Assembly: GCA_947644195.1 (NCBI GenBank)
Contig: CANRZB010000026.1
Coordinates: forward strand, 1 to 51,253
Source: an uncultured Clostridium sp.
Lineage (GTDB): Bacteria > Bacillota > Clostridia > Lachnospirales > Lachnospiraceae
Direction of reading: 5' to 3'
DNA: 51,253 nucleotides
In this document: positions 4,334-22,020 of the stretch, one piece after another
Position numbering within the stretch: position 1 is the first letter of the stretch
Layout of the letters: every line of letters begins with the position of its first letter
Translations under genes and position numbers: made by a program
Notes under the pieces: generated by a model
The model's input: the letters and a program-made list of their open reading frames with translations, nothing else
Told to the model about the DNA's origin: nothing
The model's database searches: none

Positions 4334-4495
4334 CTAAGTATTTCCAATTGTGACACATTGTTACGCCCTTTCCCACCCGCTTTGCTATTTACTGTCTGAT
4401 ATTTTTTCCTATGCCCATGGTTTACTTGCAAAAGCTGCAAAAAAAGCGTATGATTATAATAACTGTACTTCTACACTTTAAAGGAGATGATTGAT

Positions 4496-6640
4496 ATGAG
4501 GAAACGCAAACCATATATATTTTGTCATGTCTTTACGCTCTGCACAATTTTACTGTTATCCTGTGCATTTGGGATATCTATCACAGGTACAGATGCCTCT
4601 GCTGCCAAGAAGACGACACTGAAAACTAAAAGTCAGTCCCTATACATCAACGGGACATACACCATTCCTTTGAAAGACAAGAAAAAAAAGGCAACCTACT
4701 TTTATACCTCTAACAAGACCAAGATTGCTAAAGTAAACTCCAAAGGAAAAATAACGGCACGTGGAAAAGGAAGCGCCAAAATAAAAGTGCGCTATAAATA
4801 TAAAAAGAGAACCTATTCTGCAGGAACATTCAAAGTATCTGTGCAAAAAGCAACCCTGCGAAGCGATATCCGAACCTTAGTAACCACGGTAGGTTCTCAG
4901 ATTCCTGTGACTTCCTATCTCAACGACAGAAACCCTTCTGCCACCTATGAGATCAGCGGAACAAATTCTGCCGTGGCATCCGGCAGATCAGATGGTACAA
5001 TCACCGTAAATAAAGCAGGAACAACGACACTTACCATCGTTGAAAAGTATAATGGCAAGAAGCGCACACTAGGCAAGTTTTCTATCTCTGCCAGTGGAGC
5101 TTCCCTCAGTACCAATCGTATAAAAATGGCTTATGGAACCTCCTATCATGCAAACTCCCTTATTGTGGATAAACTGCCGGGAGCTTCCTACAGTCTAGCT
5201 TCTACCAACAATAACATGCTGGCAGTCTCTGGCATGGATCTGACGGCAGGCGCAGATCCTGGATATAACAGTGAACAGCAAGTTTATGTTTATGAGATCA
5301 ACGCCGGACAGATGCGACTGATTGGATACTTTTCCGTTTCTTTGATTCAGACGGTATATGTTGCACAGAATGACCGTAATATATCCGTTGGCCTAGGTGC
5401 AAAACTTACGGTTTCCAACGACTGCATCCGGCTGACAAATCCGGATCCTGCTGCCAGCTATTCCTTGATTACCAAAAATAAAGCAGTCATAGATGAAGAA
5501 TTAACCGCCATAAATTATGGTACTGCAGAAATCGCAATTCAGGAACAGAAACCGGGAAGCGCTGTAAAGGTATTGGATGAAACGGTAACGGTTACCGTAA
5601 CCTCATCTACGATCAAATCCGAACTGATCACAAACGGCCTGGATCTGACAGTGGACCAGGTTGCCTACAATGATTATCCCGTCAATAACCGTAACCATAT
5701 GGTAAAATATTTTTACAAGTCTTCCAGTGATTCCATCTGCCAGGTAGGCACCGGGGGAGATGGAGAAGATCAGGACTATCTGGTGCTGTATCCGAAAAAT
5801 GCAGGAACTGTGACTATCACAGTCTTTGAAATTGCCCTGGGTAATGCTTCCCAGAGAACCATCGGCTCCTTCGAGGTTCGTGTGGCAAAAGATACGGCGG
5901 AGATCGAAAATGTAGATGATCTGATGGCAGCCGACCTCTTATCTTCCTGCTCACTCTATTACAAAGGCAAAACCTTTACCGCCAAGCTGGAAGAAGGCAC
6001 CCGAAACTGCCGTTTTGTTGATGAGAATGGCGTCGGTATCCTGGACTATGGTATGAATTATAACCGCATTACGAACGGCAGTTTCATGCTTACGCCAGTT
6101 CGAAACCGTTTTCTGATAGACCATCTGGAGAGAAATGACGATGATCCATCCGAGTGGACTGTATATATTGATATCCAGAATGAAACCAGTGACCACGGTA
6201 CCGATATCATTCCGCTGCGTATCTATCTGGAGGAAGCACCGCTAGACGCTGCGATTTTATTCCAGGGCATCCAAATCAATGTTGGAGATTCCCGTGGAAC
6301 CATCAATCAGTGGTCCACAATGCCAGACGATGACCAGACACTGCAGTTTGCAAATTCCAACACAGAGTTTGCCTACCAGTTTACCAAAAAGCAGTTCCTC
6401 GCTGCCGGTGCAACGCAGTTTGACCCGAATGAATTAAATCCGGTTCATATCAAAGATTTAACAAATATATTCTGTACACCGATTCAGGCTACCTGGAGTA
6501 GCACCAATCCGAACGCAAGCGTGGCAGTAACCGCTGTTTCCGGCGCTACTTCCAGCGACAACCTGCATTGGAACTATACCGTTTCCTTTGAAAATGGCAC
6601 CAAACAGGATTTTAAGGTTACTTTAAACGTTGCGGAATAG
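4496..6640 (+). CDS. Secreted protein with N-terminal lysine-rich Ig-like (Big_2-type) domain
   Basis: The protein has 714 residues. The ATG at 4496 is preferred over 4487, because AGGAG at 4482-4486 is correctly spaced only for 4496. The N-terminus is a signal peptide (basic start, hydrophobic stretch, 'ASAAKK' as likely cleavage); 'LLSC' inside it could alternatively be a lipobox. Residues ~35-120 form a basic Ig-like domain with the typical 'YTSNKTKIAKVNSKGKITA' pattern, followed by further beta-rich repeats of the same flavour (for example 'GTNSAVASGRSDGTITVNKAGTTTLTIV'). The C-terminal half is not recognised. No LPXTG motif or cell-wall hydrolase motif is visible. tmk starts 10 bases after the stop, so this surface protein may be cotranscribed with a nucleotide kinase, although the functional link is obscure. 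Its role is unknown. Confidence 0.75.
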   Translation: MRKRKPYIFCHVFTLCTILLLSCAFGISITGTDASAAKKTTLKTKSQSLYINGTYTIPLKDKKKKATYFYTSNKTKIAKVNSKGKITARGKGSAKIKVRYKYKKRTYSAGTFKVSVQKATLRSDIRTLVTTVGSQIPVTSYLNDRNPSATYEISGTNSAVASGRSDGTITVNKAGTTTLTIVEKYNGKKRTLGKFSISASGASLSTNRIKMAYGTSYHANSLIVDKLPGASYSLASTNNNMLAVSGMDLTAGADPGYNSEQQVYVYEINAGQMRLIGYFSVSLIQTVYVAQNDRNISVGLGAKLTVSNDCIRLTNPDPAASYSLITKNKAVIDEELTAINYGTAEIAIQEQKPGSAVKVLDETVTVTVTSSTIKSELITNGLDLTVDQVAYNDYPVNNRNHMVKYFYKSSSDSICQVGTGGDGEDQDYLVLYPKNAGTVTITVFEIALGNASQRTIGSFEVRVAKDTAEIENVDDLMAADLLSSCSLYYKGKTFTAKLEEGTRNCRFVDENGVGILDYGMNYNRITNGSFMLTPVRNRFLIDHLERNDDDPSEWTVYIDIQNETSDHGTDIIPLRIYLEEAPLDAAILFQGIQINVGDSRGTINQWSTMPDDDQTLQFANSNTEFAYQFTKKQFLAAGATQFDPNELNPVHIKDLTNIFCTPIQATWSSTNPNASVAVTAVSGATSSDNLHWNYTVSFENGTKQDFKVTLNVAE

Positions 6641-11755: not shown

Positions 11756-11782
11756 ATGATAACAGAAAGGAGCTGTTATCAT
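11756..11782 (+). promoter_or_regulatory. Perfect inverted repeat displaying the ribosome-binding site in its loop
   Basis: ATGATAACAG (11756-11765) and CTGTTATCAT (11773-11782) are a perfect 10-bp inverted repeat, and the 7-nt loop AAAGGAG is the ribosome-binding site of the next gene. The right arm includes the first two bases of the start codon. It could be an mRNA hairpin affecting initiation, or a DNA operator. Confidence 0.55.
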
Positions 11783-12152
11783 GAAAAAACTGAATTCACG
11801 TTATTTACGATCTTCCGGCACACATGTCCCCCGGTACTTCGTCCTTGGCTTAGCTATATTCTGCTGGTTTGCAGCGTTAATTCAATGTTTAAAATCACAA
11901 AAAGATAGTTCTTTTATACGTCCATTTATTGAAACAGCGGTACCTGCTTATTCTACCCAATGTCTCAAAGATTCTTCCTCCTACTGTATCTATTCCCATG
12001 AAGCTGACGATTATTATGATTACTATTTTTATAGTCCACTGATAGAAGCAGCCGGTGTAAAACCAATTGGCCAGGGCTATAATGTTCATGTTGCTGTCAA
12101 AAAAGACGGTTCTGTCTATCTGGGCTTTCCAAATATTACCTGTGACTTTTAA
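11781..12152 (+). CDS. Small membrane-anchored protein of unknown function
   Basis: The protein has 123 residues. One hydrophobic segment (about residues 19-36, 'YFVLGLAIFCWFAALIQC') is preceded by a basic N-terminus, giving a type II or uncleaved signal-anchor with the C-terminal part outside. The external part has three cysteines and a tyrosine-rich stretch 'DDYYDYYFYSPL' and ends 'VAVKKDGSVYLGFPNITCDF'. I do not recognise a family. The ribosome site sits in the loop of a perfect inverted repeat. The gene converges with, and overlaps by 3-4 bases, a minus-strand gene at 12149. It lies between rsmI and the surface-protein cluster. Confidence 0.6.
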   Translation: MKKLNSRYLRSSGTHVPRYFVLGLAIFCWFAALIQCLKSQKDSSFIRPFIETAVPAYSTQCLKDSSSYCIYSHEADDYYDYYFYSPLIEAAGVKPIGQGYNVHVAVKKDGSVYLGFPNITCDF

Positions 12153-12496
12153 TGAAATCTGCGGCCTCTCCCATGAGGTGGATGTGGTGGGCGTGGTCTG
12201 TTCTTTTTACACCCCTCTCTACGGCACCCCATCTCATGGCATAGCAATACCTGCACCAGGGAATGAAACGATGAATCATTTTTCCGATCCCCACAGATTT
12301 GGTCCGTAATCCATTCTACCGTTACACGATCCGGATACTCATCATACATGGGACTTCCTGCATACTCCATGCTGTCACAGGCTTTTACAATACTCTCCTG
12401 CAGCAATGCAGCCTCTCTGGGCAAAAGATGCTGGCAATCCCAAGATTCCTTTTTCTCTGGAATCTCAGATTTTTCCGGCTCCACTTGAAATGTCAT
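12149..12496 (-). CDS. Small conserved hypothetical protein, clostridial type
   Basis: The protein has 115 residues from the ATG at 12496, which is preceded by AAAAGG; an in-frame ATG at 12526 would add ten residues. It carries the segment 'CDSMEYAGSPMYDEYPDRVTVEWITDQI' and a C-terminus rich in Arg, Cys, Pro and His ('CRREGCKKNRPRPPHPPHGR'). From memory, similar short proteins with an 'EYEGS-MYDEYPD' core and an Arg-rich tail occur in many Clostridia without assigned function. It is the only minus-strand gene in the first 20 kb and converges on the small membrane protein with a few bases of overlap. Confidence 0.6.
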   Translation of the reverse strand: MTFQVEPEKSEIPEKKESWDCQHLLPREAALLQESIVKACDSMEYAGSPMYDEYPDRVTVEWITDQICGDRKNDSSFHSLVQVLLCHEMGCRREGCKKNRPRPPHPPHGRGRRFH

Positions 12497-12652
12497 AATA
12501 CAACCTTTTCCATATGGTGGATTCATATCGATACCTGCTTTTTTCTTTTCATATTATTGTATGAGGCACAATCTAATATGTGTAGGTCAATCTATAAAAA
12601 AACATAATTTTCCTCCAATTTTAACGATTCTATGAAAATCAATTTCCCTTTA

Positions 12653-12714: not shown

Positions 12715-15231
12715 TTGAAACATTTATATAAATTTACCATTTTATTATTCATATTTATTGGTTCCATCTTTTATTTTAAAAAAGAAATTCCATCCATCTC
12801 AGTGGCTACCACGACAGCTACCAGTTTACAGGACTCTACATTTCCGATTGTCTATCTGCAAAATGACAAATATATGATGAATACGCTGCACGGATACAGC
12901 AGTGAATTAAACAGTGGTAATATCCGCGAATCCATCACTCCATTAAATACCAAAAAATCATTTCAGGTAAAAATTGATGAAAATGCTTCCAAGATCAAGC
13001 AGTTAAACTATGCTTTAAAGGACATTTCTAATAATGAAATTATTGAGGAAGGCAAAATCAATGCATTAGAAAAAAAAGAAAAATATAAAGTGGCAAAAAT
13101 CACACTCAAGGAAGCTCTGGAATCCAGCACGGAATATGGAATTCAGATTACTTTGACGACCAATCTCAGCAAAAAGATCCATTTTTATTCCCGAATTAAA
13201 TATTATGAAAACGATTTCTTTCTCTCGGAGAAGATGAATTTTGTTTCCAATTTCCATGAAGCATGTTTTGACGGCGGAAAGTCAATGGATTTGACGAGAT
13301 ATTTGGAGGCAAATACCAGGGATGATTCTACTTACGCGGATGTGGATATTCATTCCAATTACAAACTGATTACCTGGGGGAAACTGAATCCCAAACGATT
13401 GACCACTCCCATTCCAACCATCAAAGAAATTAATATTGAGACGGCTGCCATCCAGCAAACCTATTATATTTCAGCGACCACATCTTCTGGCAAAGAAACC
13501 TTTCAGGTCAAGGAATTTTATCGCATCCGTTATTCTGGTGGGCAGATCTATCTCCTGTATTTCCGGCGTACCATGGAAGCAACCTTTGATCCCAAGCTGA
13601 TTTCTTTGGCAAAAAGTGAATTTAAAATCGGGATCACTGCAAAAGAAGACCTGGAAATTAATTCCAGCGATTCTAACAACAAAGTAGCATTTGTGCGAAA
13701 CGGCTCACTCTGGTACTACGATATGAAAATCAATAAATTATATGAGGTTTTTACCTTTGAGAAAAACTCCAAGGATTACCTGCGGGACTGCTATGATCAG
13801 CACGATATCAAGATTATTAAAGTCGATGACCAGGGAAATATGAGTTTTGTCGTTTATGGTTATATGAATTGCGGCGATTATGAAGGACATGTTGGAATTT
13901 TGCTCTACGATTACAGTGCAGAGGATAACCGTATTACAGAACGCGTATATTTACCAATTTCCACAACCTACCAACAGCTCAAAGAGGACTTCGGAGATTT
14001 TTGTTATGTCAATGACAAAAACATCTTCTATTTCTCTCTGAACGATACGGTATATGCCTATAACATTTCTTCAAAACGATACGACATTCTGACAGAAAAT
14101 GCATCCAACGATCATTTTCTGATGTTGGAAAATGCACACTGTTTCGTCTGGTCGAACGCTTCCGACACAGGGGAAGCGAACAAAATTACCATTTTGGATC
14201 TGAACACCTCCCAGGATCTGACCGTTACCTCTGCCAAAAACGAGAGCATCGTGGTTCTGGGCACTATTGACGCTAACATTGTGTATGGGTTTGTGCGAAA
14301 CAAAGATATTCATGAGTCTACCACAGGCGATGATATTCGTCCGGCGTACAAACTTATCATCTCTGATTGTCAGGGAAATATTCTTCGGGAATATTACAAC
14401 AAAAACAAATATGTTACGAGTGCAACCGTGGAAGGCAATGTCATCCGCCTCAATCGAATCAAAAAAGTGGGGGGAGTGTGGAAGAAAGCATCGGATGACA
14501 GTATTATGAACCAAAAAAATTCCTCGGTGGAATCCATTAATCTGACATCCCGTGTTACGGATATTTCGCTGACAGAAAAATACATTTCCCTGCCTGCTGG
14601 ATTCATTATGCAGCAACAGCCAGATGTCCTTTCCACAAAATATGTGATGGTTACCGAAAATACGACAGCACGGATCACAGAATCCGACCATAAAACAAAA
14701 AAATACTATATTTATGCATACGGAGGCATTACAGCATCTTTGACCAGCGCCTCCGAAGCCATCCAATTGGCAGATGAGCAAATGGGCGTGGTAATGGATA
14801 ATGCATCCCATATTGTCTGGGAACGCGGAGGAAAATTCTTAAGCAAAGAATTATCCAATATCTCATACCCGGATGATACCTCAAATACAGTAAAAGCATG
14901 TACACAAATGCTGCTACAAGCTGCACAGATTACCACCTCCGTGTCACAACTAAAAGGGAATTCCATCATGAAAATGCTTCGTAACTACCTGGATACCCCT
15001 GTCAACCTATCAGGCTGTACCATGGATGAAGTTCTCTACTTTGTGAGCAGTGAACGTCCTGTCATTGCTATGCTGGGCGATCAACACGCTGTCCTGTTGA
15101 CGGGTTACACCTCATCTACCGTAACCTGGATGGATCCGGCAACCCGCAGAAGTACCACCATGCCGCTAACCAGGGCAGAAGAAACATTTAAAAATGCTGG
15201 ATATACGTTTGTTAGCTATATCTCTAATTAA
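12715..15231 (+). CDS. Membrane-anchored extracellular protein with C-terminal C39-like cysteine peptidase domain
   Basis: The protein has 838 residues with a TTG start at 12715 behind AGGAGG. Residues ~5-21 form a signal anchor. Residues ~40-700 are beta-rich, with repeats reminiscent of a propeller ('NKVAFVRNGSLWYYDM', 'GNMSFVVYGYMNCGDYEGHVGILLYDY'). The last ~130 residues resemble the papain-like C39 fold: a candidate catalytic C729 in 'KACTQMLLQAA', H791 in 'GDQHAVLLTGY' and D807 in 'WMDP', with the spacing and hydrophobic context of this family. The peptide substrate is unknown. No ABC transporter domain is attached, so it is not a classical bacteriocin exporter. The gene has its own promoter and is followed by a terminator. 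A pseudo-peptidase is possible, because the residues before the cysteine are not the usual 'CGPA'. Confidence 0.65.
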   Translation: MKHLYKFTILLFIFIGSIFYFKKEIPSISVATTTATSLQDSTFPIVYLQNDKYMMNTLHGYSSELNSGNIRESITPLNTKKSFQVKIDENASKIKQLNYALKDISNNEIIEEGKINALEKKEKYKVAKITLKEALESSTEYGIQITLTTNLSKKIHFYSRIKYYENDFFLSEKMNFVSNFHEACFDGGKSMDLTRYLEANTRDDSTYADVDIHSNYKLITWGKLNPKRLTTPIPTIKEINIETAAIQQTYYISATTSSGKETFQVKEFYRIRYSGGQIYLLYFRRTMEATFDPKLISLAKSEFKIGITAKEDLEINSSDSNNKVAFVRNGSLWYYDMKINKLYEVFTFEKNSKDYLRDCYDQHDIKIIKVDDQGNMSFVVYGYMNCGDYEGHVGILLYDYSAEDNRITERVYLPISTTYQQLKEDFGDFCYVNDKNIFYFSLNDTVYAYNISSKRYDILTENASNDHFLMLENAHCFVWSNASDTGEANKITILDLNTSQDLTVTSAKNESIVVLGTIDANIVYGFVRNKDIHESTTGDDIRPAYKLIISDCQGNILREYYNKNKYVTSATVEGNVIRLNRIKKVGGVWKKASDDSIMNQKNSSVESINLTSRVTDISLTEKYISLPAGFIMQQQPDVLSTKYVMVTENTTARITESDHKTKKYYIYAYGGITASLTSASEAIQLADEQMGVVMDNASHIVWERGGKFLSKELSNISYPDDTSNTVKACTQMLLQAAQITTSVSQLKGNSIMKMLRNYLDTPVNLSGCTMDEVLYFVSSERPVIAMLGDQHAVLLTGYTSSTVTWMDPATRRSTTMPLTRAEETFKNAGYTFVSYISN

Positions 15232-15314: not shown

Positions 15315-15355
15315 ACAAACATATGTCAAAAAACATGACATATGTTTGTTATGTT
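15315..15355 (+). terminator. Terminator after the C39-like protein gene
   Basis: A perfect 14-bp stem is formed by ACAAACATATGTCA (15315-15328) and TGACATATGTTTGT (15336-15349), with a 7-nt loop, followed by TATGTTTT. Confidence 0.75.
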
Positions 15356-15361
15356 TTACTA

Positions 15362-15390
15362 TTGCCATTTCCAGTGTTTTTTGTTACAAT
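15362..15390 (+). promoter_or_regulatory. Predicted promoter for the kinase-LRR cluster
   Basis: TTGCCA (15362-15367), a 17-bp spacer and TACAAT (15385-15390) lie directly after the preceding terminator and 40 bases before the ATG at 15430. Confidence 0.6.
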
Positions 15391-15429: not shown

Positions 15430-16461
15430 ATGAAACTAATTTTTCCACTTCTAACCATTTCACTTATTTTAGGCACTATGCGATATCCGATTTCTACGGT
15501 ATCTGCCTCTGCACAGCAACACCATTCCTTTGCGACCGCAAGGAATCTCTACATGGAACAATATGTTTCCGTTACGATTGCTGCCAATGCTTCCGAATAT
15601 TGTTATTTTCATTCTCTCCATTCCCAAAAAGATACCGAAAGCTACCAAATAACGGTATCAAACTCTTCATCGATTTCTATCTCTGCTTATAACGACCAGG
15701 GAAACATGGTATCATTCAAAACTAGCGAAACCAGTGGCTCCACATGGACAGGTTCTTTGAATTGTGAGTTAGGCAATGAGCGTTTTTTTCTAGTGCTTCA
15801 AAATTTGTCGAAAAAAGATGTCTCGATTCAATTATTGGTTCAAAATCAATCTGTTTCGACCAATCCACCTTCACGAAGGCCGTACAATGGCAGCACAGGA
15901 TCTGCCACGAAAAAACCTCGAAAAACTTCAAGGCCAAAAAATTGCTCAACGAAAAAACCATCACAAAAACCTCGAAAAACCTCAAGGCCAAAAACTTTCT
16001 CATCGAAAAAACCACAGAACTCTTTTGCTCCAAAAAACATTGTAGATCCACCGTGTTTACCAAAGAAATCTGGGCAGTCCTCAAAAAAATATCAGAGGGC
16101 TTTCCCACACAATACAGAGATACCCAAAGATAATCTCAACAAATCTTCTGCCAAACCCTCACCAACAAACGCAACAAGACCCAAAACCGACACAAAGCAA
16201 CCCAACCACACCCTTTTCAGATCTAATTCCATAGTATCCTCACATTTTGTCCGAATGACCGAAGGATACTCTGTCTCTGCTTTTGAACTGCTGCCAATTT
16301 ATCTGCCAGAAAACCAATTTACCCTGGAAAGTTTAACACCCGATTTTCTATCCCTTCAAAACAACATTATCTATGCCAAAAAATCTGGTCTAGGTGTACT
16401 CCGCATCCAATATTACGGCCACACCACAACATGTACACTTTATATTCAGAAAAAAACATAA
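15430..16461 (+). CDS. Secreted basic protein, first gene of the kinase-LRR cluster
   Basis: The protein has 343 residues; the ATG at 15430 follows AAAGGAG. A signal peptide ends near 'VSASA'. Residues ~30-140 look like a beta-sandwich of the prepeptidase/PPC type ('VTIAANASEYCYFHS...', 'GNERFFLVLQNLSKKDVSIQLLV'). A low-complexity region (~150-260) rich in Lys, Pro, Ser and Thr contains two copies of an 18-residue repeat starting 'PRKTSRPK'. The C-terminal ~70 residues resemble an Ig-like (Big_2) domain ('IIYAKKSGLGVLRIQYYG'). The highly basic linker is suited to crossing or binding the anionic cell wall. The kinase-LRR gene starts 13 bases after the stop, so the two are almost certainly cotranscribed. 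I do not recognise a function. Confidence 0.65.
   Translation: MKLIFPLLTISLILGTMRYPISTVSASAQQHHSFATARNLYMEQYVSVTIAANASEYCYFHSLHSQKDTESYQITVSNSSSISISAYNDQGNMVSFKTSETSGSTWTGSLNCELGNERFFLVLQNLSKKDVSIQLLVQNQSVSTNPPSRRPYNGSTGSATKKPRKTSRPKNCSTKKPSQKPRKTSRPKTFSSKKPQNSFAPKNIVDPPCLPKKSGQSSKKYQRAFPHNTEIPKDNLNKSSAKPSPTNATRPKTDTKQPNHTLFRSNSIVSSHFVRMTEGYSVSAFELLPIYLPENQFTLESLTPDFLSLQNNIIYAKKSGLGVLRIQYYGHTTTCTLYIQKKT
15916..16023 (+). repeat. 54-bp in-frame tandem repeat (2 copies)
   Basis: Copies at 15916-15969 and 15970-16023 each encode 18 residues beginning 'PRKTSRPK'. The copies differ at several bases, so the duplication is not recent. It makes up part of the basic linker of the secreted protein. 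Confidence 0.8.
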
Positions 16462-16474
16462 AAAGGAGGTCGTC

Positions 16475-18010
16475 TTGTCCGTTACTACAAACGCATTATC
16501 CAAAAACCAAGCGGTTAATCAATCCATAGCTCTGCCAAAATTTCTGTCCATAAAATGGGATATCAACCAATGGCTACGTGTCACAAAAAAACATAGTATT
16601 CTCTCTGCATATAACAAAGAAAGTAATGCCCTTCAAATTTTAGAACTAATTCCCAACAGATTTTACAACAAAAGGCTATGGAAAACTTTACTCCACTTGC
16701 CAGATGACAAACTATTAGTGCCAGAGAGAATTTACCCCATAGAACAAATGCACGTCCTGGTTTTCCCTTATCATACTTCACTCAAAGAATTGGTACGAAC
16801 GAAAGGGATCTCTTTTCCTCAAATAGTACAATTAATCTTGAATCTGTGCGATAGTCTTTTCTGCCTGCATCGTGCCAATATACTACATGGAGATATCAGT
16901 GTAGACAATATTTATCTAACTGACAATAAGCAATTCATCCTGGGAGATTTCTCAGAATCCTATTTCTTGGATAAAACTATATCACTATCTAAAAAGCCTC
17001 CCTCTACTTCCATGAGCTCTTACCATGATAAAAAAGCTATTTCCACTCAGACAGATTTGACTTCTCTTGGCAAATTATTTTATCAACTCTGTAATCATGG
17101 AAATCCCCTGCTGGAAAACGACAGCCATCTTTCTCTGGTAGATCTACCAATCTTCCAAACAGATCCAGATCTATTAGAAACCTTTCTTCCCATCTTATCT
17201 AAATTACTTACTAAAAATTCTATGGAACAATATGCTGATCTTCTTTCTTTCCAGAAGGACCTAAAAACTTTGTCTTTACAGCGTATGGAACAAGTGAATT
17301 ATCAATTATTTCTGCCTGAGGAAACTCATGTGTTTCACCAGACTATAACCAGACAGGAAACTGAACCAAAATCTAATATTTGCCATTTTTTCTTTTCTAT
17401 TCCATTCATCCTTTTGTCGGCGGTAACATTTATTCTGTTACTCTTTCTGCTACTATGGCCTCATTTTATGGATTCGGGAAAAAATATGATACCTACAAAA
17501 TCCAATACAAACCATGCTACAATTTCTTCAGGCGCTGCCATTACCGCCACAACGATATCTCCTGCCTCTGCACATCCTATTTTAGATATTGCCAATCAAA
17601 ATCTTACCTTACTAACCCCTGACCTATGGAATAACCAACTTAAAGAGGAAATCTATGTATTATTGGCAGAAGAAAATGAAATTTCCGATCTGTCTACTCT
17701 GACAGCACTTCCCAATTTGCGGGAAATTTATCTCAGTAATAATCAGATTTCCGATCTTCAATCTCTTGCATCCTTGCCAAACCTGGAGATCGCTGTTTTA
17801 TCGGATAATTATTGTAACAACCTATCCGGACTTGAGGAATTAGACCATCTGCGCTTTTTAGATTTATCCGGGAATCAGAAACTAGAAAATATCGACCCTC
17901 TATTCCATCTTGCTTCTCTGGAAACTTTAATTTTAACTGACACTTCCCTATCCAAAAATTCTATCGAAGCACTTCAACAATCCCTACCGGATTGCAACAT
18001 CATATTTTAA
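16475..18010 (+). CDS. Transmembrane protein kinase-like protein with extracellular leucine-rich repeats
   Basis: The protein has 511 residues; the TTG at 16475 follows AAAGGAGG with 5-base spacing (an earlier in-frame ATG lies inside the preceding gene). Residues ~30-290 form a protein-kinase-like domain. It has the catalytic loop 'HGDISVDNIYL' with D140 and N145, and 'GDFSES' with D158 in the DFG position. The beta-3 lysine site reads 'NALQILELI', with Q54 where Lys is expected, and no glycine-rich loop is evident. Residues ~309-331 are one transmembrane helix, then a Ser/Thr-rich spacer, then about five leucine-rich repeats (~380-505) of the 'LPNLREIYLSNNQISDL' type. With no signal peptide, the kinase should be inside and the LRR outside, the same topology as PASTA kinases. 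It may be a divergent kinase or a pseudokinase. It sits between two secreted-protein genes. Confidence 0.75.
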   Translation: MSVTTNALSKNQAVNQSIALPKFLSIKWDINQWLRVTKKHSILSAYNKESNALQILELIPNRFYNKRLWKTLLHLPDDKLLVPERIYPIEQMHVLVFPYHTSLKELVRTKGISFPQIVQLILNLCDSLFCLHRANILHGDISVDNIYLTDNKQFILGDFSESYFLDKTISLSKKPPSTSMSSYHDKKAISTQTDLTSLGKLFYQLCNHGNPLLENDSHLSLVDLPIFQTDPDLLETFLPILSKLLTKNSMEQYADLLSFQKDLKTLSLQRMEQVNYQLFLPEETHVFHQTITRQETEPKSNICHFFFSIPFILLSAVTFILLLFLLLWPHFMDSGKNMIPTKSNTNHATISSGAAITATTISPASAHPILDIANQNLTLLTPDLWNNQLKEEIYVLLAEENEISDLSTLTALPNLREIYLSNNQISDLQSLASLPNLEIAVLSDNYCNNLSGLEELDHLRFLDLSGNQKLENIDPLFHLASLETLILTDTSLSKNSIEALQQSLPDCNIIF

Positions 18011-18030
18011 CGAAAGGACTCTGATACACT

Positions 18031-20469
18031 ATGACATTCCATATCAAATATTTATCTCGATCTCTGAATGGTTTAATAATTACTGCCATTACATTATTCT
18101 GTATTATTTGTCTTCTTCCCGTGACCAGTCATGCAAAAACTGCCAGGCTTACATGGAAAAAAGAACGTTCTTCCATTGAAATCGGACAATCTTTTCGATA
18201 CCGAATCAAACACTGCCCCAAAAAAGCAAAGGTACAGTTTTCTTCCAGCCATACCTCACGGGCTACCATTCATCCAAAAACAGGATTATTTCGGGCAAAG
18301 AAATCAGGAAATGTAGTAATTACAGCAAAGATATTTCAGAAGCGAAAAAAAACAAAACGACTGAAAACCAGAATTCGGATCATCAAAAAAAGTAAAATTA
18401 CTAAGAAAAATACCACGTCCGATCTACCGAAAAAAGTCTCAAAAAAAGAATCTACCTCTGATCCATCTAGAATAGTAACCAATGCTACATTTACTGTGGC
18501 AGAATCTATTCATCCCTGGAATCATTCTATTATCCTTTATAGCAACCGCATATTACTCCAATCTGAAGTTCAGGGCACAAGCCTGTCTCTGATGCAACAT
18601 ACTACCGATACCCCAACAAAGAAAGACCTTGGCTTAACTGCATATTTTCACTCACTTTCTGACGATGGAAAATCTGTGACATACCTGCTAAATGAGGATT
18701 CTACCCGCAAGATGTGTCCTGGAAACGGGACATTTGACGGTGAATACCTCATTACCAGCGACTTTTTCCAAAAGCCCTTACGCACCAGATATCAAGAACG
18801 ATTAAGTTTCCATTGTGTGAACGGATTCGTGCTCGATTCTCAACAAAAATCCCTGCCTCAAGTTTCTGTCAAATTATATTCGGAGAATGGGAATATCCTT
18901 GTCGCAGAAACCATGACAGACCAAAATGGATACTATCAATTTCAAAATATCTCAAAAAAGAATGTAATGCTAACAGCAGAATTAGAAGGTTATAATCGTT
19001 ATTCCCTTCCCTCTCTACATCCAATCAATCAGAATATATGCCAAAATATTATTTTGCATCCCTCTTCCACAAAAGATCTGGCTGTTACCTGCCAAATCTT
19101 AGACGAACAAAATCGACCGATTACTGATACAGCCGTAGTGCTAACGACAGAAAGTAACATTACCTCTGACGGAGGCCTTCTTAATGCAAACCAAAAACCA
19201 GGACAATTATTTTTAAAAGGATTTGTCGATTCTAAGGGAACCATTCAATTTGCGAATGAAAATTCTATTTCCGGCAAGGGTTACACTAAAATCAAGCATT
19301 ATTATGATCAATCCTTGCCAGAATACTGTGAAAAAAAGATACCAATATCTGATTCTGTGATTTGTGATCCCTCTTATTCTCTCAATCGTCAGGTAAACTA
19401 TGTACTCCTTGTCTTTCCAAAAACAGATGGTTCCCGTATGCCAAGAGATTATGAAATGACTTCCTTTTCATTTTCTTTTGCCCCTCTGCTCTCTAATCAC
19501 CTGCTGGTGCAAGTCCATTTACGGAAGCTCCCTTCCACATCTGCCGAAAAACTATCCATTTTAGCAAATGATTTGGACATACTACCCAGCAATTATCACT
19601 ATACACTTTTTGATGAAAATGGCCATATGTTATTTCAGACCAACCTATCTCCCTTATCCGAAAATCAAGAACAGGATTATTCCAAACAATTAATTTTAGC
19701 ACTACAGGATCAAGAGATCTGTCTGCATAACGGTAATTATTTCGCCGCTGTTACCGCAAATTCCTCTACCGATAGCGTTTGTTCTGCTGTTGCCATTCAG
19801 CCAGTACAAATTGTAAATCAAAAACTATCTGCCACTCATTTTCAGCTTTCCACCTACCGTACCTTGCACGCTCTTGTTTTAGCAGATTATAATTCCAAAC
19901 AAGTAGAACCTGTTTCCTTTATTCTGTACCAAAAATCGGACACCACATGGATACCTATAGGGACCTATGCAACATCTTCCTTTACCGATATATATTCAAA
20001 GCAGAAAGCTTACCTTGATATTCCCGTCACCTTATCAGATGCAACCTATCGTCTCGTGCCTGCCCATCAAAAATATCATATTTCAGCAGGCGCCACTCTA
20101 ACCGTATCATCTGGGCAAACAATCATTACTTCGGTTCCAGAACATCAAATTCATATCAAAAACAATTTGATGGACCCAGAGATCTCCATAACACAGCAAA
20201 TTACATCGGAACTGTTACAATTTTCTCCTCTTGCTCCTATTCAAATTTCCTTTGACCCTGCTTATTATAATTCTTCCACGACCTATCCAAATACTGTTTA
20301 CGCCTATTACCAACCAAATGGAGAATTTACCAGCCTTCTCTTTACAACACCAGGTCTTTCCTCCATTCTCAACACGCCGTCTTCTTTCATCTGTGATCGT
20401 CTGCAGAATGGAACATCTATTTCTACAACACAAATCGCCTATTCCACAACACCATTTTTTGTCACATAA
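18031..20469 (+). CDS. Secreted protein with basic Ig-like and carboxypeptidase-regulatory-like domains
   Basis: The protein has 812 residues; the ATG at 18031 comes after GAAAGGA, 20 bases after the kinase gene. A signal peptide (1-~35, ending 'SHA') precedes a lysine-rich Ig-like domain (~36-115). A Lys/Ser linker follows, then at ~260-340 a carboxypeptidase-regulatory-like fold with 'VNGFVLDSQQKSLPQVSVKLYSE' and 'TDQNGYYQFQNISKK'. A second, weaker copy ('VTCQILDEQNRPITDTAVVL') follows. The remaining ~450 residues are beta-rich and unrecognised. There is no LPXTG motif. It is the third gene of the unit and a plausible ligand, scaffold or adhesin for the kinase-LRR protein. Its 3' end overlaps the convergent pdp gene by 31 bases. 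Confidence 0.65.
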   Translation: MTFHIKYLSRSLNGLIITAITLFCIICLLPVTSHAKTARLTWKKERSSIEIGQSFRYRIKHCPKKAKVQFSSSHTSRATIHPKTGLFRAKKSGNVVITAKIFQKRKKTKRLKTRIRIIKKSKITKKNTTSDLPKKVSKKESTSDPSRIVTNATFTVAESIHPWNHSIILYSNRILLQSEVQGTSLSLMQHTTDTPTKKDLGLTAYFHSLSDDGKSVTYLLNEDSTRKMCPGNGTFDGEYLITSDFFQKPLRTRYQERLSFHCVNGFVLDSQQKSLPQVSVKLYSENGNILVAETMTDQNGYYQFQNISKKNVMLTAELEGYNRYSLPSLHPINQNICQNIILHPSSTKDLAVTCQILDEQNRPITDTAVVLTTESNITSDGGLLNANQKPGQLFLKGFVDSKGTIQFANENSISGKGYTKIKHYYDQSLPEYCEKKIPISDSVICDPSYSLNRQVNYVLLVFPKTDGSRMPRDYEMTSFSFSFAPLLSNHLLVQVHLRKLPSTSAEKLSILANDLDILPSNYHYTLFDENGHMLFQTNLSPLSENQEQDYSKQLILALQDQEICLHNGNYFAAVTANSSTDSVCSAVAIQPVQIVNQKLSATHFQLSTYRTLHALVLADYNSKQVEPVSFILYQKSDTTWIPIGTYATSSFTDIYSKQKAYLDIPVTLSDATYRLVPAHQKYHISAGATLTVSSGQTIITSVPEHQIHIKNNLMDPEISITQQITSELLQFSPLAPIQISFDPAYYNSSTTYPNTVYAYYQPNGEFTSLLFTTPGLSSILNTPSSFICDRLQNGTSISTTQIAYSTTPFFVT

Positions 20470-21758
20470 CCTAAAATTGCTTTCGGCTGTTCCGGTTTAC
20501 AAGAAGAAATTTGGTAGCTTTCTTTTAATTTTTCCAGAGCTGCTTCCGCTTTTTCAAATTCTGAAGTATATACAGTTGCTAAGAGATCTCCTTTTGATAT
20601 CTTATCCCCAGTTTTGTGGTAGAAACGGATTCCGGCTGTCATGTCAATCTGGTCCTCTTTCGTTTCTCGGCCAGCACCTAATAATACAGAAACTTTCCCA
20701 CATTCCTCTGTGTTCATTTGATTGATATATCCATCCTCCCATGCAATCAGATCCCTTTGTACAGCGGCTTTTCCAAATTTTTCAGGATAATAGATATATT
20801 CTGTATCACCACCCTGTGCACGCACCATTTCTACTAATTTTTGAAATGCACTTCCATTCTGTATGACCTGATCCACCATTTGAATACATTGTTCCCTGCT
20901 GCCAATCTCTGCCAACTCCAACATAATTGCTGCAATAGCACGACAAATTTCTACAAAATCATCTGATCCCTTTCCCTGTAACGTTTCAATCGCCTCAACG
21001 ACTTCAATACTATTTCCAACGGTATTGCCTAAAGGAATATCCATATTGGTTAAAATTGCAACGGTTTCCCGTCCAGCTCCCTCACCAATAGCAATCATCT
21101 TCTCTGCTAAAAGCGTTGCCTGTTCCACATCTTTCATAAACGCACCGCTTCCCACCGTCACATCCAGTACAATTTTATCACTTCCTGCCGCCAATTTTTT
21201 ACTCATAATGGAGGAAGCAATTAATGGAATACTATCAACGGTTGCTGTAACATCCCGCAATGCATAAATTTTCTTATCAGCCGGAGCTATACTCGCCGAC
21301 TGTCCCATGACAGCCAATCCAATCTGATTCACTAATTCAAAAAACTTCTTTTCAGGTATTGTCGTCTGTAATCCGGGAATCGCCTCTAACTTATCAACCG
21401 TTCCACCCGTGAAGCCCAATCCACGACCACTCATTTTAGCCACTTTTCCACCACATGCTGCAACAATGGGTGCTACCGCCAGCGTTACTTTATCTCCCAC
21501 TCCTCCTGTACTATGTTTATCCACTTTGATTCCCTGGATTGCCGACAAATCTACCTGATCTCCAGAGTTCGCCATAACTTCAGTAAGGGCTAGCAATTCA
21601 CGATCGGTCATTCCCTGAAAATAAATTGCCATTAACAGGGCAGAGACCGAATAATCTGCTATGCTGCCCTCCACATATCCATTAACAAATTTCTCAATTT
21701 CTTCTCTCGTTAATTCCATACCTTTTTTCTTCTTATCAATGATATCATATAGATTCAT
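20439..21758 (-). CDS. pdp: Pyrimidine-nucleoside phosphorylase
   Basis: This enzyme phosphorolyses uridine, deoxyuridine and thymidine to the base and (deoxy)ribose-1-phosphate. The 439-residue protein has the N-terminal helical domain with 'LTREEIEKFVNGYVEG', the phosphate site 'KHSTGGVGDKVTL', 'MSGRGLGFTGGTVDKLEAIPG' and 'AADKKIYALRDVTATV'-type segments. The start is taken as the second of two adjacent ATGs (21758), with GGAGG six bases upstream. cdd lies upstream on the same strand, so cytidine is deaminated by Cdd and the product split by Pdp. Its 3' end overlaps the convergent surface-protein gene by 31 bp with no room for a separate terminator. Confidence 0.96.
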   Translation of the reverse strand: MNLYDIIDKKKKGMELTREEIEKFVNGYVEGSIADYSVSALLMAIYFQGMTDRELLALTEVMANSGDQVDLSAIQGIKVDKHSTGGVGDKVTLAVAPIVAACGGKVAKMSGRGLGFTGGTVDKLEAIPGLQTTIPEKKFFELVNQIGLAVMGQSASIAPADKKIYALRDVTATVDSIPLIASSIMSKKLAAGSDKIVLDVTVGSGAFMKDVEQATLLAEKMIAIGEGAGRETVAILTNMDIPLGNTVGNSIEVVEAIETLQGKGSDDFVEICRAIAAIMLELAEIGSREQCIQMVDQVIQNGSAFQKLVEMVRAQGGDTEYIYYPEKFGKAAVQRDLIAWEDGYINQMNTEECGKVSVLLGAGRETKEDQIDMTAGIRFYHKTGDKISKGDLLATVYTSEFEKAEAALEKLKESYQISSCKPEQPKAILGYVTKNGVVE

Positions 21759-21828
21759 CATTATCCTCCGTTCTCTATAACAATAACAAAATCCACCATC
21801 CATAGAATAAACTAAATAGATAATTCCA

Positions 21829-22020
21829 TTTATCAAATATCAGCTGATCAAGACACGAGTGTCTTGTCTCGTTGATAATTAGGCAAACCAACTTGTCAAT
21901 TTGCACATCTGCTACGTTGAATTTTCTAACCGTAGCCACCGCTACGCTGTCGAAAATTCGCCTTGCAGATGAACAAATATACCTGCGTTGTTTTATCAAA
22001 TATCAACGAGATAAGACACT
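21829..22020. repeat. Palindromic (MITE- or REP-like) element between cdd and pdp
   Basis: Nineteen-base arms at 21858-21876 and 22002-22020 are inverted copies with one mismatch. Between them the sequence continues as an imperfect palindrome: GAATTTTC (21919-21926) with GAAAATTC (21952-21959), and CGTAGC (21931-21936) with GCTACG (21941-21946), centred on CACC. A 14-bp direct repeat TTTATCAAATATCA occurs at 21829-21842 and 21992-22005. The right arm supplies the last five codons and the stop of cdd. The size and structure fit a non-autonomous mobile repeat; no second copy was noticed in this window. Confidence 0.65.

Follow-up and report, generated by a model that had tools for sequence, protein, structure and literature searches.

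A three-gene unit near the chromosome origin

The locus analysed here is a unit of three plus-strand genes, A, B and C, in which a gene for a membrane kinase with leucine-rich repeats (LRR) stands between two genes for secreted proteins. It lies on contig CANRZB010000026.1 (assembly GCA_947644195.1) of an uncultured Clostridium sp. of the Lachnospiraceae, whose genus includes Butyribacter intestini; the whole stretch analysed, positions 1 to 51,253 of the forward strand, is referred to as the window. By open reading frame (ORF) calls, A (15430-16461) encodes a secreted protein of 343 aa, B (16475-18010, TTG start) a 511-aa protein with a kinase-like domain, a transmembrane (TM) helix and an LRR in that order, and C (18031-20469) a secreted protein of 812 aa. 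The intergenic gaps are 13 bases (A-B) and 20 bases (B-C), as a first-pass annotation of the same DNA had it. Ribosome-binding sites seen by eye are of GGAG type before A (AAAGGAG) and B (AAAGGAGG), and weaker before C (GAAAGGAC).

The terminator/promoter pair and the convergent gene that the annotation had placed around the unit are also found. A terminator-like hairpin of 14 pairs with a T-rich tail (15315-15349, plus strand) forms the upstream boundary. It is followed by a promoter-like site (TTGCCA-17-TACAAT with TG before the -10, 15362-15390, plus strand), which is a consensus match only (10/12). At the other end, a convergent gene (20439-21836), which from its sequence we take to be a pyrimidine-nucleoside phosphorylase, overlaps the last 31 bases of C. 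When the gap that holds the hairpin at 15315-15349 is base-shuffled, none of 50 shuffles gives one as good (0/50), while counts of such sites in the region as a whole are near chance (35 promoters against 29.3 expected, 10 terminators against 6.3 expected). Across the loci compared, the gap before A carries a terminator-like hairpin that beats all 50 shuffles in 11/22, and one that is equalled by a single shuffle in 2 further loci. Inside the unit, for the window only, there are three weak plus-strand terminator-like matches (5-6 pairs), located within B and C. Cotranscription of A-B-C is predicted as likely from these features. Since dnaA (~15 kb from the unit), parA/parB, gidA/gidB, dnaN and gyrB/gyrA all lie in the window, the unit appears to be situated near the chromosome origin.

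Gene B: kinase-like domain, membrane helix and leucine-rich repeats

In approximate residues, B consists of a kinase-like domain (20-291), a TM helix (309-333), a Ser/Thr-rich stalk and an internalin-like LRR (369-511). This make-up, proposed in the first-pass annotation, is borne out by Pfam: in the window copy PK_Tyr_Ser-Thr is over its own cut-off, Pkinase (E 1.8e-6) is under its gathering cut-off and LRR_4 is matched at E 1.5e-11, and Pkinase and LRR_4 are both matched in 24/24 aligned homologues. The predicted structure of B agrees, with a complete two-lobed kinase fold, one TM helix and an LRR (structures were predicted for B and C; the structure alignments hold 20 B and 14 C sequences). 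The LRR is made of tandem internalin-type repeats of ~22 residues, about six by the strands of the model, and many internalins are among its best PDB sequence matches. A single TM segment is found in 24 of the 25 homologues, the remaining one having an extra hydrophobic stretch within the kinase. The single TM helix and the kinase fold on its N-terminal side imply that the LRR would be outside and the kinase inside; the charges flanking the helix favour neither orientation.

The Asp of the HxD motif, the Asn of the catalytic loop and the Asp of DFG are retained in all 25 genus homologues, counting the window copy, with DFS in 23 and DYS in 2 at the DFG position. The beta-3 Lys is present in 22/24 homologues that cover the region (window counted); the window copy has Glu57 and that of G011 has Leu. 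A Gly-rich loop (GxGxxG) is not seen by eye in any of 24 homologues (24/24). The B family looks, from its sequences, like an atypical kinase retained under selection. With the loss of the beta-3 Lys, the copy in the window species may be catalytically altered or dead, that is, a pseudokinase.

Several better known classes were compared with B feature by feature. No PASTA repeats are matched by Pfam in the window copy or its homologues, and the PASTA kinase of the window genome lies elsewhere (G000:C1). The internalin models of NCBIfam score far under their cut-off with B, in which the LRR comes after the kinase and the TM helix. The order kinase-TM-LRR is not the plant-type order LRR-TM-kinase. 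Among the 13 Pkinase matches of the window genome, B alone falls under the cut-off, and a search with a B profile finds the LRR part in none of the other 12.

Genes A and C: secreted beta-domain proteins

A carries a signal peptide, an N-terminal beta-type domain (~15517-15855), a Lys/Ser/Thr/Pro-rich linker with a 54-bp tandem repeat (15911-16014), and a C-terminal Big_2-like domain. Repeat-like linkers are present in A of relatives too (for example L083 and L084), suggesting length variation. C has, in approximate residues, a signal peptide, a Big_2 domain (38-121), a beta domain (150-260), a transthyretin-like CarboxypepD_reg domain (259-346) and further beta domains, and its predicted structure is almost all-beta. 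Secretion of both outer proteins, as annotated, is supported by N-terminal hydrophobic segments in 20/24 A and 16/20 C (a crude scan that included contig-cut proteins). Their Ig-like domains are recognised as Big_2, which is matched by 6/22 members of the A alignment and 9/18 members of the C alignment; CarboxypepD_reg is matched in 18/18 of the latter. The A of the window has no Pfam match at 0.01, while the A family profile matches a solved Big_2-bearing chain (E 2.6e-7). The label "basic", given to both proteins in the first-pass annotation, fits A (net charge +13 to +68, positive in 24/24) and not C (-7 to +58).

Leave-one-out profiles recover every held-out A, both with the C-terminal 85 aa (24/24) and with the N-terminal domain (18/18). 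Run on the 269 ORFs of the loci, the C-terminal profile matches 24 ORFs of A plus three more, which are C proteins or a fragment that directly follows B; such matches are expected from a Big_2 domain shared with C. For the fold of the N-terminal domain of A there is nothing convincing in Pfam (best E 0.0018, in 1/18 members) or in PDB (T-cell receptor chain, E 0.31; ColH collagen-binding domain, E 0.45). A PPC-type domain is a possible identity for it.

The unit could also be read as a surface-structure module. A and C would then be wall proteins with a structural or adhesin-like role, and B would serve as a membrane scaffold for placing or assembling them, its kinase fold being a docking platform and not a signalling enzyme. 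This appears rather unlikely. All 25 homologues retain the catalytic Asp and Asn and the DFG Asp, although kinase-domain identity averages 27%, and a pure scaffold would have no need of these residues; nor do the final 60 residues of A and C contain an LPxTG motif.

Conservation of the unit

B is found in 25/28 genus genomes, window included. The three negatives are uninformative, G007 because of a contig break and G023 and G025 because they are 60-65% complete and lack the neighbour gene. In all 24 genus loci whose contig reaches it, A precedes B on the same strand (the contig of G010 begins inside B; A is cut by the contig end in G021 and holds Ns in G015). As far as the contigs reach, the loci share the order rsmI - small genes - 838-aa C39-like protein - A - B - (C). 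Gene starts in relatives come from a mechanical longest-ORF caller, and the alignments hold 24 of 25 B (without the cut G010), 22 of 24 A (without G015 and G021) and 18 of 20 C (without the split gene of G026 and the cut one of G020).

The A-B pair is also present in two other genera. In G298 it occupies the same slot. In G336 a gene that is presumably deoB separates A from the 838-aa gene, and A itself is found on both sides of a contig break in overlapping pieces that differ slightly; because the break falls in A, we infer the A-B adjacency there. The 838-aa gene is upstream of A in all three genera. A scan of 397 genomes of the family finds, among the matches followed up, whole-length B-like proteins outside the genus only in G298 and G336. 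Scans of the order (392 genomes) and the phylum (398), in which no more than three candidates were scored in each genome, return only the window's own genome at E 1e-32, a cut-off that would miss G298 (E 2.5e-31).

C is present in 20/25 B-bearing genus genomes, in 19 of them on the same contig as B, and is downstream of B on the same strand in each of these 19 loci (19/19). Most of C is on another contig in G020, and G026 has a C that is split between frames. The five C-less genomes (G001, G015, G002, G022 and G019) have only partial matches elsewhere, nearly all to the N-terminal Big_2 part of C. They belong to one clade: the tree of B groups all five, and the core-gene tree, with a single change in C, groups four, G019 being absent from it because its flanks are on another contig. 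Absent from one clade and from both outgroup genera, C is accessory and not needed for A-B, and the core unit is A-B. Far from being a rare association, A-B recurs in three genera and C follows B wherever both can be placed; the three-gene order thus holds up for A-B and not for C as a constant member.

A's N-terminal domain and C are both missing in the same five genomes, yet both outgroup genera keep the N-terminal domain and lack C; the coupled loss was not used as a sign of A-C contact. Separately, very long convergent ORFs (1232-1241 aa) follow B in three genomes of the C-less clade (L065:5982-12999, L067:3375-10499 and L080:643-4341), with a second long one in L065 and L067.

The main clades on the tree of B are those of the core-gene tree, which points to vertical inheritance. 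This bears on the reading of the unit as an anti-phage or competition defence kinase system, which draws on its fast evolution (see below) and on matches of the kinase region to the PADLOC kinase models MkoA, PD-T4-6 and mad6 (best E 8.8e-13) and to MADS6 of NCBIfam (E 2.3e-12, yet 46 bits against a cut-off of 460). The PADLOC matches are, however, confined to the kinase and neighbouring region, with none for A or C at E 0.01, and one constant slot near oriC together with a B tree that follows the core tree is unlike mobile defence islands. A defence system is therefore very unlikely.

The 838-aa gene upstream of A (12715-15231, plus strand) encodes a protein with an N-terminal hydrophobic segment and a C39-peptidase-like C terminus, and is probably a transcription unit of its own. 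Its mean identity is 0.65. The presumed catalytic Cys729 is present in 16/22 members and His791 in 18/22; as neither is universal, several members may be inactive.

Rates, selection and co-divergence

Mean pairwise identity is 0.21 for A, 0.29 for B and 0.28 for C, against 0.59-0.79 in ten flanking genes (compared in 4 to 22 genomes each). The PASTA kinase of the same genomes is 59-80% identical (24/24, local alignments); for B the figure is 23-31% across 23 relatives (whole alignments). The ratio of nonsynonymous to synonymous substitution rates (dN/dS) is 0.21-0.53 for A and 0.17-0.29 for B in six close pairs, and 0.10-0.19 for C in three pairs; in 13 flank comparisons it is 0.02-0.19, with 12 of them at 0.11 or less. 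These values are rough, as the synonymous rate is high. Judged from such comparisons, the A-B-C set is old, under purifying selection and unusually fast, including its predicted cytosolic domain.

Low identity could instead mean relaxed constraint, B being a degenerating or repurposed kinase, and A and C fast exported proteins that merely share a promoter. The mean identities above, the residues at the beta-3 Lys position in the window (Glu57) and G011 (Leu), and the speed of two small flanking ORFs all favour this explanation. These ORFs (11781-12152, plus strand, 123 aa; 12149-12526, minus strand, 125 aa) have no Pfam match and a mean identity of 0.35 and 0.48. The explanation is nevertheless quite unlikely, given that dN/dS is well under 1 in the pairs tested, that ORFs have the size expected, except for contig-cut genes and the split C of G026, and that the A-B order is retained in three genera.

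Whether A, B and C diverge together was assessed from distances. In a partial Mantel analysis against one slow gene, partial r is 0.38-0.65 for A, B and C, and -0.14 to 0.25 for control pairs. Once ranks, a quadratic fit and fast linked controls are used, the partial correlations drop to 0.18-0.42 (p 0.002-0.022) against -0.05 to 0.29 for controls, and the A-C pair (0.42) alone is clear of them. In 275/276 pairs conservation is higher in the LRR than in the kinase, mostly at scaffold positions (non-scaffold 0.304 vs 0.25), and this difference was not used as evidence.

Other kinase-LRR loci in the family

Related architectures at the loci L164, L156 and L157 suggest that kinase-LRR proteins are a loose set of systems in the Lachnospiraceae. 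L164:15-6168, from G007 of the same genus, has a second kinase-TM-LRR protein (742 aa), a PP2C and a secreted protein with LamG and five Big_2 domains. Four genomes (L157, L158, L159 and L162) have a kinase-LRR protein without TM helix amid multi-TM proteins; in L157, the one of the four that was scanned, the neighbours are a PP2C and an ABC-2 transporter. The window genome itself has clusters of several kinases, some of them transmembrane, with PP2C (G000:C4:47000-66900, L184; G000:C19:28000-45000, L185). Within the window, a 717-aa protein with a sub-threshold Big_2 match (4487-6640) is found beside thymidylate kinase.

L156:1-8537 (G150), from another genus, encodes a kinase-TM-LRR protein of 727 aa, and the fourth gene downstream encodes an FtsK/SpoIIIE-type ATPase with a weak FHA match, which is type VII-like; phospho-regulated secretion is possible for this locus. 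By extension, the unit with A, B and C might be a regulator of a secretion system. This is extremely unlikely, as no FtsK/SpoIIIE match is found among the window proteins scanned, which are a subset of the larger ORFs of the window alone.

A working model

The model we work with is that A-B(-C) is a chromosomal envelope-sensing receptor module, with A as a dedicated exported partner and C as an accessory, and we consider it about as probable as all other explanations together. B would be a single-pass protein with a cytosolic atypical Hanks-type kinase, a TM helix, a Ser/Thr-rich stalk and an external LRR sensor. The polycationic Lys/Ser/Thr/Pro-rich linker of A would hold it in the wall, where it would present its Big_2 domain, and C, where present, would be a longer surface beta-sandwich protein acting alongside A and B. 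The LRR of B may bind A, most simply through the Big_2 domain, which is the simplest target as it is the part of A kept everywhere. The state of the wall, or of A or C, would then alter LRR occupancy, so that the kinase domains of B are reoriented or paired; such a signal could use ATP and change the phosphorylation of cytosolic targets, or change their recruitment, as its output.

Several observations weigh against this model. Catalysis is doubtful, because the window copy of B is without the beta-3 Lys and the family is without a Gly-rich loop. The four PP2C matches in the window genome are not on the contig of the window. C is not found in five genus genomes, nor in full length in the two outgroup genera. 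A is hard to see by single-sequence search, being found in 3/61 genomes, its own included, and blastp with A finds 5/23 other genus loci. Proteins with Big_2 are common in these genomes, which makes A and C nothing unusual as a type of protein. A fast rate by itself does not link A, B and C, because the two small flanking genes are also fast, and the co-divergence of the three beyond background is weak. The roles of ligand, scaffold or target of the LRR receptor, suggested for A and C in the first-pass annotation, are tentative.

A different role for the same parts is that the LRR of B reads A, alone or together with C, as an exported ligand or co-receptor made by the cell itself, the whole set, cytosolic kinase included, diverging fast and so forming a private channel for each species. 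This would be comparable to peptide quorum sensing, but with a kinase bearing an LRR ectodomain as the reader. We hold it to be unlikely.

Comparison with known systems

Searches of the open-access PMC literature found no paper on such an operon. The statement of the first-pass annotation that no characterised bacterial system has this combination can therefore be kept within that literature, with the qualification that an LRR-bearing kinase of Pseudomonas aeruginosa was mentioned in 2005. The survey in question names this protein and the NHL-repeat kinase Mbk of Mycobacterium (PMC1262709). Both are like B in having a kinase and a repeat-type interaction domain; in the parts of the survey consulted, no A- or C-like partners are mentioned for them, and the repeats differ or the topology is unstated. 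A 2011 survey that included 884 bacterial genomes, and that sought the plant-like architecture, reports LRR receptor kinases beyond the land plants from eukaryotes alone (PMC3268121).

By the feature tests above, B is not a PASTA kinase, not a plant-type LRR receptor kinase (its domain order differs), not an internalin as a whole protein and not a known defence protein. Internalin LRR domains resemble that of B, but internalins are wall-anchored or released, whereas the LRR of B follows a kinase and a TM helix. The YukC/EssB pseudokinases of type VIIb systems have a cytosolic kinase-like domain and then one TM helix (cf. the abstract of PMC9600267), and are not known to carry an LRR. B differs from them in its LRR, and YukC/EssB belong to a secretion machine that is not seen among the window proteins scanned.

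The PASTA kinases (PrkC/Stk1/PknB) are like B in having an N-terminal cytosolic Hanks-type kinase, one TM helix and a C-terminal repeat ectodomain. Envelope sensing is their known role (cf. the abstracts of PMC5786024 and PMC12077195). In B, an LRR replaces PASTA, the catalytic motifs are atypical and there is no adjacent PP2C; it has conserved neighbouring genes for secreted proteins, and it evolves much faster than the PASTA kinase of the same genomes. Kinase-TM-repeat receptors are known in bacteria; an LRR ectodomain on a membrane kinase with secreted partners of its own, in a fixed slot near the origin, did not turn up in the open-access PMC literature searched. This raises the questions of whether an atypical kinase without a Gly-rich loop is active in the relatives, and whether the window species, without the beta-3 Lys, still signals.

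Plant and other eukaryotic LRR receptor kinases share with B an LRR predicted to be outside, one TM helix and a kinase inside. The order is reversed in B, with the kinase first, the LRR is short and internalin-like, and the kinase is atypical. The unit resembles a receptor with dedicated partners, in a bacterial form that seems not to have been studied. If the partnership is true, it would offer a compact system for the study of how an LRR can read a protein embedded in the wall and drive a kinase through a single helix, and the logic of plant immune and growth receptors would be present in a lineage of gut commensals.

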